A DNA stretch of 64,000 nucleotides, from the NCBI GenBank assembly GCA_013214025.1, contig JABSRN010000014.1:1-64000 (forward strand), in the 5' to 3' direction. Below the pieces are notes generated by a model that was given only the letters and a program-made list of their open reading frames with translations, was not told the origin of the DNA and searched no databases. The stretch's first letter is position 1. Each line of letters begins with the position of its first letter. Positions 27,401 to 61,432 of the stretch are shown piece by piece. The DNA is from Polyangiaceae bacterium. GTDB lineage: Bacteria; Myxococcota_A; Polyangia; Polyangiales; Polyangiaceae. Both the position numbers and the translations under genes were made by a program.

Positions 27401-29910
27401 TACAGAGATTGTTGAATCTCGCCGAAGTGGCTGAGGAATGGGATTCCGTTGTTCTTCACACCAAAGAGCTCATCGAGGTCGAGGGGGATGAGGAAGAAAT
27501 TAGCGGCATGACCCGACGTTGTGCTGAAATCCTCCACGAAAAGCTCGAAAAGCACGAGGAAGCATTGAATCTACTCGCAGCTGTAGGCACCCAGGGCGAT
27601 CAAGCTTGTCGAGACTATTTCGTAGAGATGGGAGATGAGGTGGATGAAAAGATCCGCGTCGCGACCCAGCTCGTCGAATGGTTCCGGGAGTTCCCCTCCG
27701 GTAAGCGTCGGACCACTGCGCTGCATGGCGCCTTTGAGCGATTCGCCGAAGCGGGCAAACTGGAGGAAGCGGCGTCCGTAGCCAAAGATCTCGCTCACAC
27801 GCGTACCTTGGAAGCCAACGTTGCCGAGACGCTGGAAGGTATTGCTGTAGAGCTGAAAGATTTGGACGCTCTGGCGGTCGCCCAGCGCTTGCTCGTCAAG
27901 GAGTTGGGCGGTCCGGCTCGCTCGGAGGAGTTAGTTCGCCAGGCAGAGGTGATGATCTCAGCGGGCGTTGAACCGGTCGAAGCTGTCGAGCACGCTGAGC
28001 AAGGCATCAGCAGCACGCCACCGGAAGAAGTCGAGCCGCTCTTGGTCCGACTCGCCGCCCTCGTGAAGGCCCCCGGGCACGTTATTGACGTATACGAACG
28101 TCAGGTGACGCGGTGTAAAGCGCCTGAGGATCGGCTCAATGCTCTGGGGCGCGCCGCCCAAATTGCTGCCGACAAAGACGCTCTGGATCGCGCCAGGGAG
28201 TTCTTCGATCTGGCCATCCAGGGTGGGGTCCAAGAAGAGACTCTTGCTGTACTCGAGGCCATCGCCAAAGAGACGGACCAACTCTCAGACAACAAGAAGC
28301 TTCGCACCACACTAGCCGAAGCCTTGGCCGGCGGCGGACAAGGATCGCGCGACGGCGGCCGGACGAGAAGCGCGCTGCTGTTGCGTGCCGCGACCATCGC
28401 TCACGTTGAGCTCGCGGATGTACAGAAGGCTTTCGAATGGGTGGGTGACGCTCTGGTTACCCATGTGGACGATGAAGGGCTTCAGGCCTTGGATGCCCTG
28501 GGTGCGGACGCCGATGACTACGGCAAGGTCGAGGCGGTGCTCGCTCGCGCGCTCGAAGAAGTGTTCGATGGTCCCTTGGTAAGAAAATTGTTGGCGGCTC
28601 GCGCTGACGTTCGGCTCCAACATCTGGATGACATGAAGGGGGCGGCGGTTGACCTGAAACGCCTGCACGATCTGACTCCAGGCGACGCCGAAGTCATGGG
28701 ACAGCTATCCAGTCTCTACACGGAGTTGAAAGATTTCCGAGGCATGGTCGCCCTGTTCGAAGACCAGATCCTGCGTGGCCGCGATCAGGGAGCCCGGGCG
28801 GAGCTCGCTCGCCAGGTAGCGCTGTTGTGGGAGAACGAACTCGATGACCCGCGGGAAGCGGCGGATGCGTGGAGGCGCGTGCTACGGATGAAGTCCGGGG
28901 ACGAGCAAGCGAAGGCCGGTCTCGATAAGGCGAAGGCTGACATGTTGGCGCGAAAATCCGAGCTGGCCGAGCGCGCGGCAAAAGAAGAGGCCGAGCGAAT
29001 TGCGGCCAAGGAAGCTGAGGAAAAGGAAGCGGCTGACCAACAGGCGGCTGCCGAGCAAGCCGAGGCGGACGGACTCGCAGAGGCGGAGCACGCAGCAGCC
29101 GACGCGGTTGACGATGACGCAGACCCAGCCGACGACGCGCCGGATGAAGCCGAGACAACTGATGACGAAGGCGCGTCTGACGCGGACGCAACAGACGCAG
29201 ACGCAACAGACGCAGTGTCAGCGGATGGCGACGAAGATTCGCAGGACGGTGGCGAGCTGCCGGAAGGGGACGTTGACGCCGAGAGCACCGAGGTGCGGGA
29301 AGAGAGCGGGCCTGTAGAGGTAGTCGGGTCGGCCGACGCCAGCCATGAATTAGACGTGGCTACGAATCCGCCGCCGCCCGAGGAGTCAGCTGTGGAGGGT
29401 GTCGGAACGGCGTTTGAGACGGCGTTGAGCGCCGACGATTCGACGGAGCCCGAAGAAGTCGTCCCAGAGCCAACGGACGACGTGGTGGCTGAAGATGACG
29501 CAGACGATGACGGCGATGACGATGACCTGGGCGCCGACGTAGACGACGTGATGGGCTCGGTGCCACCGCCGCCCGCGAGCGGCGGCTCCCGAAGTACGCC
29601 GCCCCCTCCGCCACCGCCGCCACCGGCTTCCGGCATGGGCGCGCTCCCGCCCCCCGCGGTGCCCGGTTCGGTCCGCCCGCCCCCCCCGCCGCCGCCAACC
29701 TCAAGTCGAGGGGGCTTGCCGCCGTCGACTTCGAGTCGTGGGGCCTTGCCGCCGCCACCACCGCCGACTTCGAGTCGTGGGGCCTTGCCGCCACCACCAC
29801 CGCCGACTTCGAGTCGTGGGGCCTTGCCGCCCCCCCCGCCGCCCCCGCCCCCGGAGGCGGCCGAAGACGAACTCGTGGATGACTCCGAGCTCATGCTCGA
29901 AGACGACTGA
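24439..29910 (+). CDS. Giant TPR-repeat protein with acidic and Pro-rich tail
   Basis: An 1823-residue protein built almost wholly of TPR-like helical pairs (examples: AIENYQRALGHDPRSQFSIY, AGRYREVLALDPTQAAALAF, AIACYERVLAEYDPKNTDC). An acidic low-complexity insert lies at about 370-445. From about 1500 the chain is Ala/Glu/Lys helix, then strongly acidic, then Pro-rich (1700-1810) with a 13-residue repeat of the form TSSRGALPPPPPP, and it ends acidic. No signal peptide is seen, so it is probably cytosolic, a scaffold for large assemblies; large TPR proteins are needed for gliding motility in Myxococcus, but I cannot assign this one. The ATG at 24439 starts directly with repeat-like sequence. 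Confidence 0.85.
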   Translation: MDAKAIDSLVRRLIADPHDEAAIQEAHRGGQQDPRGYAGLLEKVGAATADPALASHWLNEAASVWQTTLNDAHRAARALMMAIDREPTRPEAADRLAELYREKGDAKGLVALLERRAKALASDAGGNPEILAQLAGLHEELGQLWSGEQLDNVDKAIENYQRALGHDPRSQFSIYSLREIYKAKGNYLEAIPYFAQEQALVEDPDRRHALWQDEAEVRKTAGDLLGCAQVFELLLSERAEDPEVQQQLAAAILDVVRMREPIDESMKAAGAQLFVALAELYPGEHALAYSTCALEVVPGHDRAVQLAIHYGNELGRIEEVATFAAAYVQCNPNGVLADEAKAVAGAAAPFVHVDPADQTEIDLSPAHEAAAQSASAQQSEPEAVAMPEPAPEGAPETVAPPEEAGPTVEAAAKVPAVFDEETAAGEFDASELLEGEIVDEEPAPEPGSMAVLLEEAAQFLSKRRKNEAAGRYREVLALDPTQAAALAFLQTHLRQTRKYAELRDMLLVATRAPDVSAEARATWFREVASLCEAQLRDFASAISAWQQLLALEPGDEETVKRLKRLLERGGKWDELAVMFEQQAAQATDKEERIALEKDLAKLHEGRRKDPAAAGEAWARIANITPDDDTALNTAIRLFERGKRPDLAEAAISDNVTLVEDAAIKLVLYTKLGALREGAGALDRAAEAYAEGAAATSDLGLWEAAERCYAAGEDWANAASAIDERAQVASEDLEKANLFTVEADYLVRAGDENGATDRLQQASALDPLNDATAASLEQRLLEAGRFEDLVVRLLERASKLEDPGARVSYRRRAASIQREQLEDPSAARESLELVLADGEDPGALSELAEDSEANGDFAAAVELLARLGRATSHPVEAVDICIREARLRVESLSDLAGAIACYERVLAEYDPKNTDCFVALAELEEQQGDQAALAALLERHLQIVDDAEGKIELCQRLATLYETELDLPGNALRALRIVHELDPDDFDAVQRLLNLAEVAEEWDSVVLHTKELIEVEGDEEEISGMTRRCAEILHEKLEKHEEALNLLAAVGTQGDQACRDYFVEMGDEVDEKIRVATQLVEWFREFPSGKRRTTALHGAFERFAEAGKLEEAASVAKDLAHTRTLEANVAETLEGIAVELKDLDALAVAQRLLVKELGGPARSEELVRQAEVMISAGVEPVEAVEHAEQGISSTPPEEVEPLLVRLAALVKAPGHVIDVYERQVTRCKAPEDRLNALGRAAQIAADKDALDRAREFFDLAIQGGVQEETLAVLEAIAKETDQLSDNKKLRTTLAEALAGGGQGSRDGGRTRSALLLRAATIAHVELADVQKAFEWVGDALVTHVDDEGLQALDALGADADDYGKVEAVLARALEEVFDGPLVRKLLAARADVRLQHLDDMKGAAVDLKRLHDLTPGDAEVMGQLSSLYTELKDFRGMVALFEDQILRGRDQGARAELARQVALLWENELDDPREAADAWRRVLRMKSGDEQAKAGLDKAKADMLARKSELAERAAKEEAERIAAKEAEEKEAADQQAAAEQAEADGLAEAEHAAADAVDDDADPADDAPDEAETTDDEGASDADATDADATDAVSADGDEDSQDGGELPEGDVDAESTEVREESGPVEVVGSADASHELDVATNPPPPEESAVEGVGTAFETALSADDSTEPEEVVPEPTDDVVAEDDADDDGDDDDLGADVDDVMGSVPPPPASGGSRSTPPPPPPPPPASGMGALPPPAVPGSVRPPPPPPPTSSRGGLPPSTSSRGALPPPPPPTSSRGALPPPPPPTSSRGALPPPPPPPPPEAAEDELVDDSELMLEDD
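29728..29844 (+). repeat. 39-bp tandem repeats in the TPR protein's tail
   Basis: Copies start at 29728, 29767 and 29806, each beginning acttcgagtcgtggggcctt and encoding TSSRGALPPPPPP; a diverged copy precedes the first. Copy number is likely to vary and to keep the frame (39 is a multiple of three). Confidence 0.85.
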
Positions 29911-36602: not shown

Positions 36603-37015
36603 GTAGGCTGGCTCAGGGGGGGAGGGGGTTCCGAATCTTCCATCGCCTGATCGAACAAGTCGTCGGGCAGGGCGTCATAGGCGTCCGGACCTTCCGGCGG
36701 ATACTCCCGGGTACGGTCAATTTCGATGTCTTCTTGATAGGGATCGACACCGCGCCCGGTGGTCGTGACCGTGCGCCCCACTTGGCTCAAATCGCCTCTG
36801 AGAATGGATCGTAGCTCGTTGATGCCGCCGCCCAGGCCCTCGTCTCTGAGGATTTCGTCGATGCCGGTTTGCTCCCGGACCTGGTTCGTCAGGTTTCTGG
36901 CTTTGGAAACCCACTCCCCGAGGGAGCGCAGCATGCCAGGTAGCTTTTGCGGCCCCACTACCAGCAATGCCACCAGCGAGATGAGGACCAGTTCTGTGAA
37001 CGAGATTCCGAACAC
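36599..37015 (-). CDS. tatB: Sec-independent protein translocase TatA/TatB
   Basis: Single-span component of the Tat translocase. Residues 1-25 are FGISFTELVLISLVALLVVGP with the typical Glu, followed by the PGMLRSLGEWVSKAR amphipathic helix and an acidic tail of 90 residues. The Phe-Gly-Ile-Ser start and the FTEL motif favour TatB over TatA, but a single protein may serve both roles here because no second copy is visible. ATGA overlap with tatC. Confidence 0.9.
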   Translation of the reverse strand: MFGISFTELVLISLVALLVVGPQKLPGMLRSLGEWVSKARNLTNQVREQTGIDEILRDEGLGGGINELRSILRGDLSQVGRTVTTTGRGVDPYQEDIEIDRTREYPPEGPDAYDALPDDLFDQAMEDSEPPPPLSQPT

Positions 37016-60654: not shown

Positions 60655-61198
60655 ATGACATCAGCATCCGGAAAAATATCTGAGAACCACGAGCCGAGTC
60701 GGGGAGGCAATTGCCGAAAGATAGTCGTCGGAGTGGGCGACGTCGCCGCGAGTGGCCACGTCGGGGACTTGTTCCGGACCTACGCGCTCGGCTCCTGCGT
60801 CGGTGTAGTCGCCATAGATCGGGAGAGCCACATAACGGGAATTTTACACTTCGTTTTGCCGGAGTCGGACGGAAGCGCCCGCGCTCCTGCCTATTTTGCT
60901 GATACGGGAGTTGCTACGCTTGTCGACGCGATGATTGCCGCTGGTGCGGCGAACCCAGGCGCTGCGTGGCGAGTAAAAATAGCTGGCGGGGAAAAAATGC
61001 TCAATAACTGCGATGGGGGGGGACTGCCTGGACATTGGGCGTCGAAACTTAATGGCGTGCAAGCGGTGCCTTTGGCAAAGAGGTATGGGCGCTATTGCAG
61101 AAGATGTGGGTGGCGAGCACGCCCGCAGTCTCGGCGTTGTCGTCGGCAGTTTAGACGTGAGCGTCACGAACCCGTCTCGCCCGGTCGTGATCTTGTGA
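60655..61198 (+). pseudogene. cheD: Chemoreceptor glutamine deamidase CheD, frameshifted at a G8 tract
   Basis: CheD deamidates glutamines of chemoreceptors and tunes CheC. The first part is a good match: YALGSCVGVV holds the catalytic Cys48, ILHFVLPESD the His65 and FADTGVAT the Thr84. ATG 60655 has GGAAGG upstream. At 61015-61022 a run of eight G breaks the frame; with seven G the protein would continue DIGRRNLMACKRCLWQRG, then IAEDVGGEHARSLGVVVGSL, to the stop at 61196-61198, a full CheD of 180 residues. As read, the chain runs into unrelated sequence and stops at 61215. Read error, decay or slippage control are possible. No other che genes are seen. Confidence 0.85.
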
Positions 61199-61432
61199 GC
61201 GGTTGCCCTTGGTGAATTCTATTGGTAGGTAAACGCGTTCTGCACGGCGACGCCAGAGAGACGATGTAGGTTTGTCGAAGCCTACGCGTCGAAGCGGGGC
61301 GCCGTCGCTATCGGCGTTGCGCGGACTGAGCGCTGTTGGCTTAGGCCGTGCCCGTCGTTCCTGACTTCGCCGCCGCCATCTCAAGCCCAAGACCAGCAGT
61401 CCGACGAGACTGACCACGCCGAGGAGACACAA
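61151..61432 (-). CDS. Possible small single-TM basic protein
   Basis: A 93-residue frame from TTG 61432 with one N-terminal span (MCLLGVVSLVGLLVLGLRW) followed by an Arg-rich tail of 70 residues. It overlaps the end of cheD on the other strand. The start codon is weak and no family match is seen; the region 61216-61551 holds nothing better. Could be chance. Confidence 0.25.
   Translation of the reverse strand: MCLLGVVSLVGLLVLGLRWRRRSQERRARPKPTALSPRNADSDGAPLRRVGFDKPTSSLWRRRAERVYLPIEFTKGNRSQDHDRARRVRDAHV

Follow-up and report, generated by a model that had tools for sequence, protein, structure and literature searches.

A single-copy cheD gene split between two reading frames at an eight-G tract in a draft Polyangiaceae genome

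The window analysed here, 64,000 nucleotides in length, is C46:1-64000 of a draft Polyangiaceae genome (5.77 Mb in 184 contigs, estimated to be 97% complete). On its forward strand, an open frame of 186 codons (60655-61215) starts with an ATG at 60655 and begins as CheD: its first 120 codons (60655-61014) matched the Pfam CheD family (PF03975) over profile positions 2-54, with 27.2 bits against a cut-off of 25. A tract of eight G, GGGGGGGG, follows at 61015-61022. Behind it the domain resumes in the +1 frame, in a stretch of 61 codons (61013-61198) that opens with an ATG overlapping the tract, stays stop-free down to 61196-61198 and matched profile positions 59-106 (34.2 bits, same cut-off). 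PDB chain 2f9z_C, a 'chemotaxis methylation protein', aligned with the front over residues 4-96 (E 7.7e-11) and with the back over residues 100-135 (E 0.0037); because both pieces match this chain in order, they are consecutive parts of one protein. These matches bear out the preliminary description, in which cheD was interrupted at the tract and its conserved C-terminus lay in the +1 frame directly after it, with the refinement that the true end of the gene is the stop at 61196-61198. The stop at 61213-61215 terminates only the first frame, whose out-of-frame tail (61023-61215) runs for about 64 codons. No single reading frame thus carries a continuous CheD: the frame changes at the tract, and profile positions 59-106 fall outside the first frame, which removes part of the conserved domain from it, as in a pseudogene.

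The front retains the catalytic residues. Alignments with relatives and with 2f9z_C identified T42, C48 and H65 of the first frame as the counterparts of the catalytic Thr, Cys and His, which we take to be Thr21, Cys27 and His44 in the T. maritima enzyme, so that the triad is intact in the first frame, as had been claimed. With these residues and the IGxRN...GG motifs kept, and matches over nearly the whole domain, the gene resembles known CheD proteins; it is unlike them in lying in two frames and in having no che genes adjoining. Codon-usage scoring gave each half its best score in its own frame (11.3 before the tract and 5.5 after), values below that of the average gene piece and within the range of such pieces, 20.6% and 17.6% of which score lower.

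By Pfam, cheD is present in a single copy in the genome. Its neighbours are unrelated, namely genes for an SH3 protein, a DUF3570 protein and, on each side, a protein lacking any Pfam match, together with the end of guaA (GMP_synt_C); with no che gene adjoining it, cheD is an orphan. Scanning the surroundings of the gene for promoters and terminators gave nothing above shuffles. Elsewhere in the genome, three CheW-domain places fall within one cluster on C122, read as cheA-cheW-cheW-(HEAT repeats)-cheR-cheB, and the MCP genes comprise a complete one on C149 and a fragment on C141. The latter (L087:7896-8608 and beyond) is decayed, with short broken frames and a truncated signalling domain; read by eye, a 10-base unit is repeated near L087:8530-8570 and coding-like sequence resumes in another frame. 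FliO and FliP are both present, and a flagellum is therefore possible. The search for CheC (PF04509) gave no match in the genome, and that for CheX gave six, five of them over the cut-off. To our knowledge, CheC is not necessarily present in every organism that has CheD. The partner of CheD in B. subtilis is CheC, according to the available part of one study (PMC3513319).

Searching 59 genomes with PF03975 yielded matches in 13, and a front-half query against 108 genomes of the family yielded matches in 26, the present genome being counted in both cases; none of the matches listed in either search had an internal stop. Neither the 59 nor the 108 genomes included one of the same genus. The closest among the matches listed were G011 and G060 (another genus), with 49% identity over the matched part, and in both, by gene labels read from translations, cheD sits within a che cluster. 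From 42 loci, duplicates included, 17 intact relatives were picked by eye. The tract site proved to be a variable loop upstream of the conserved IGxRN motif; in the 16 of these 17 relatives that could be read there, the longest nearby G run was of 7 (L005) and most were of 2-6. As none of the 16 carries a G8, the run has so far been seen in this genome alone. A back-half scan of genome contigs returned zero relatives, and a scan with front-led alignment returned no close kin among the best 80 of 571 loci, which came from many phyla.

The G8 run alone is ordinary and not above chance: the window holds five such runs, against a shuffle mean of 3.94, and a count over both strands of the genome gives 721 G8 positions, overlapping ones included. 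What goes beyond chance is a homologous domain split exactly at such a run. The back half otherwise appears undamaged. It keeps 11 of 20 conserved positions, compared with 12 of 23 in L011, a divergent intact relative, and the front keeps 25 of 38, compared with 24 of 41. The ratio of back to front identity, 0.75 as against 0.87-1.06 in the 17 intact relatives, was suggestive of relaxed selection on the back half but not significant (bootstrap interval 0.49-1.09), and does not set constraint there apart from ordinary divergence. Judged from the sequence, the break looks recent, because the back has no further stop and keeps the family positions as well as the divergent intact relative does. 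An undamaged back half is also what a sequence error or a switching gene would leave.

We propose, with a probability of roughly 0.6, that a slipped-strand indel at the G run inactivated this orphan cheD, a member of the chemoreceptor deamidase family. Strand slippage at the run would have changed the tract length and broken the frame. Translation from 60655 would then yield a protein made up of the first two thirds of CheD, catalytic residues included, and some 65 unrelated residues behind them, and the last third of the domain would be lost from the product. The first frame does lack that last third, and for this reason the product is probably inactive. The preliminary description had left phase variation, slippage and sequence error open as causes; its gene identity, triad and split at the tract hold, and the data now favour a real loss-of-function indel, given that cheD is an orphan, that the CheC search came up empty, that a chemoreceptor gene has decayed and that, as described below, a hybrid kinase is multiply broken. 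The locus compares well with frameshifted pseudogenes, the singleton frame transitions treated in the available portion of a survey (PMC3711429), in that one indel affects a single-copy and probably dispensable gene and similar cases occur elsewhere in the genome; it differs in that cheD has no second lesion and so would be young. A mutator state was considered as well and rejected, mutS (C13) and mutL (C129) both being full length.

How often long runs coincide with broken genes was surveyed in a sample of about 1.04 Mb, partly selected around long G/C runs. The frame test was crude, its flanks having been loosened and made variable after cheD had been seen, and in stricter earlier classifiers cheD came out as 'unclear' or was absent from the shifts. 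Among 143 distinct G/C runs of at least 8, the frame was the same on both sides in 39 and shifted in 9; 14 coincided with a change of strand, 50 had coding sequence on one side, 24 on neither, and 7 lay at edges. When the nine shifts were read by hand, four proved to be breaks, in three genes (cheD, a sulfatase and a hybrid histidine kinase), two were false and three undecided (L132, L093 and L164). With 39 of the 143 keeping frame and just four breaks accepted, the run lengths seem mostly right; the four breaks at long runs within genes also fit an assembler that mis-sized some runs. The same rule, applied across 56 sequences, called shifts at 82 of 2415 random places, at 25 of 527 G/C runs of 5 and 9 of 176 runs of 6, then at 4 of 36 runs of 7, 3 of 17 runs of 8 and 3 of 7 runs of at least 9, a rise with run length that is suggestive at most because gene boundaries and false cases are included.

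Several further candidates were set aside. The two false shifts, at window position 29680 and at L171:1475, have a single frame running through; L187:1500 lies inside one open frame and L137:5910 is intergenic on reading. Window positions 36616 (the tatB/tatC boundary) and 17090, and L092:4946, turned out on reading to be boundaries, leaders or antisense signals. A frame HMM made 73 shift calls, those inspected being gene overlaps, and did not call cheD; it was discarded.

In the sulfatase (L122:13062-14301, on C122), the N-terminal part is in a different frame from the rest, with the change at a G/C run of 11 at L122:14133; we are less sure of this break, since no Pfam family matched the N-terminal part. 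The hybrid histidine kinase (L180:1091-3001, on C67) is spread over four frames. A C8 divides its first receiver domain, and a run of 11 precedes its second receiver, which lies in a third frame; the two runs are at L180:1497 and 1749. Read by eye, the frame changes once more between the H-box and ATPase parts, with no long run there, and the N-box segment is apparently missing. In all likelihood this gene is a genuine pseudogene, a sign that at least part of the G-run indels in the genome are real. The kinase lesion outside any long run, together with the decayed chemoreceptor gene, means that real pseudogenes do exist here.

The chief rival to an inactivating indel is a sequencing or assembly error, whereby the organism would have an intact cheD and the draft a mis-sized tract; we consider this possible, if unlikely. 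It is the expected origin of isolated frame transitions confirmed by homology, in the part of the survey available (PMC3711429). The draft is in 184 contigs, the back half of cheD is undamaged, and at least nine of the 100 listed runs of at least nine G sit no more than 60 bases from a contig end, from which it follows that such runs are hard to assemble and that part of the excess of long runs may be technical. Against an error stands the lack of any excess of shift calls at runs of 5 or 6 over random places, which is unlike what an error-prone long-read draft would presumably show. The ending of contigs at G runs points to short reads, from which runs of eight should be sized well, and the L180 kinase argues that at least some of the breaks at runs belong to a real pseudogene.

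An in-frame run of eight G is the usual substrate of phase variation, and reversible slippage of the tract could switch CheD on and off between cells. The survey, in its available part, likewise treats a G8 within a coding frame in this way (PMC3711429). The frame break coincides exactly with a slip-prone G8, runs of 8 or 11 interrupt two further genes, and the genome is rich in long runs: its 122 runs of at least 9 in 5.77 Mb make it the third densest of 36 genomes compared. We nevertheless regard switching as very unlikely, because the tract is absent from the 16 relatives read at the site and most of the scored runs within genes keep frame. Two single-contig relatives, moreover, have few such runs, 8 in 12.2 Mb and 1 in 10.3 Mb, and the excess here may be technical in part. 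Comparison with the poly-G phase-variable loci of Campylobacter, as far as the available accounts describe them, points both ways: these too have an eight-G run within a coding frame and a break exactly at the run, whereas the run here is not conserved and cheD is not a surface-structure gene. A broader version, in which G-run slippage would slowly switch chemoreceptor adaptation on and off (through CheD and perhaps also the hybrid kinase and the sulfatase) and create heritable sensory diversity in a lineage rich in G runs, appears still less probable.

The least credible account is recoding, in which transcriptional slippage, a +1 ribosomal shift or a restart at the tract ATG would yield functional CheD or two complementing chains: the positive codon scores of both halves in their own frames and the ATG with which the second frame begins, right at the tract, agree with it, but a -1 ribosomal shift yields the wrong frame, the first frame stays open past the tract and so offers no stop codon to promote a shift, RNA downstream of the tract shows no more folding than shuffled sequence (z -0.23), the relatives read at the site do not share the tract, and transcriptional slippage occurs mostly at A or T runs according to the available part of the survey (PMC3711429).

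The preferred reading, inactivation by an indel, has a practical consequence: this cheD should be annotated as interrupted, and a working CheD should not be counted when chemotaxis is reconstructed for this organism. As an ordinary frameshift it would carry little weight beyond correct annotation. Mixed tract lengths would instead indicate phase variation of a chemotaxis adaptation enzyme and would make the many long G runs of the genome candidate switches. The available parts of the literature on homopolymer phase variation and chemotaxis, on broken cheD, on G-run frameshifts in metagenomes and on phase variation in Myxococcota held nothing on this case.

Some minor observations were made on repeats and contig ends. 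Within the window, proline-rich repeats of the PPPPPP-TSSRGAL-like kind (29526-29907) form the end of an open frame of 1827 codons and include two C8 runs. The draft relatives G017, G021 and G044 are likewise rich in long G runs. Some contigs of the present draft begin or end in G runs of up to 14, as at the ends of C12 and C16 and the start of C92. The end of C46 (L102, C46:71459) and the start of C86 (L116, C86:1) share a short reverse-complement stretch, as if both stopped at a repeat, and similar contig ends occur on C90 and C100.
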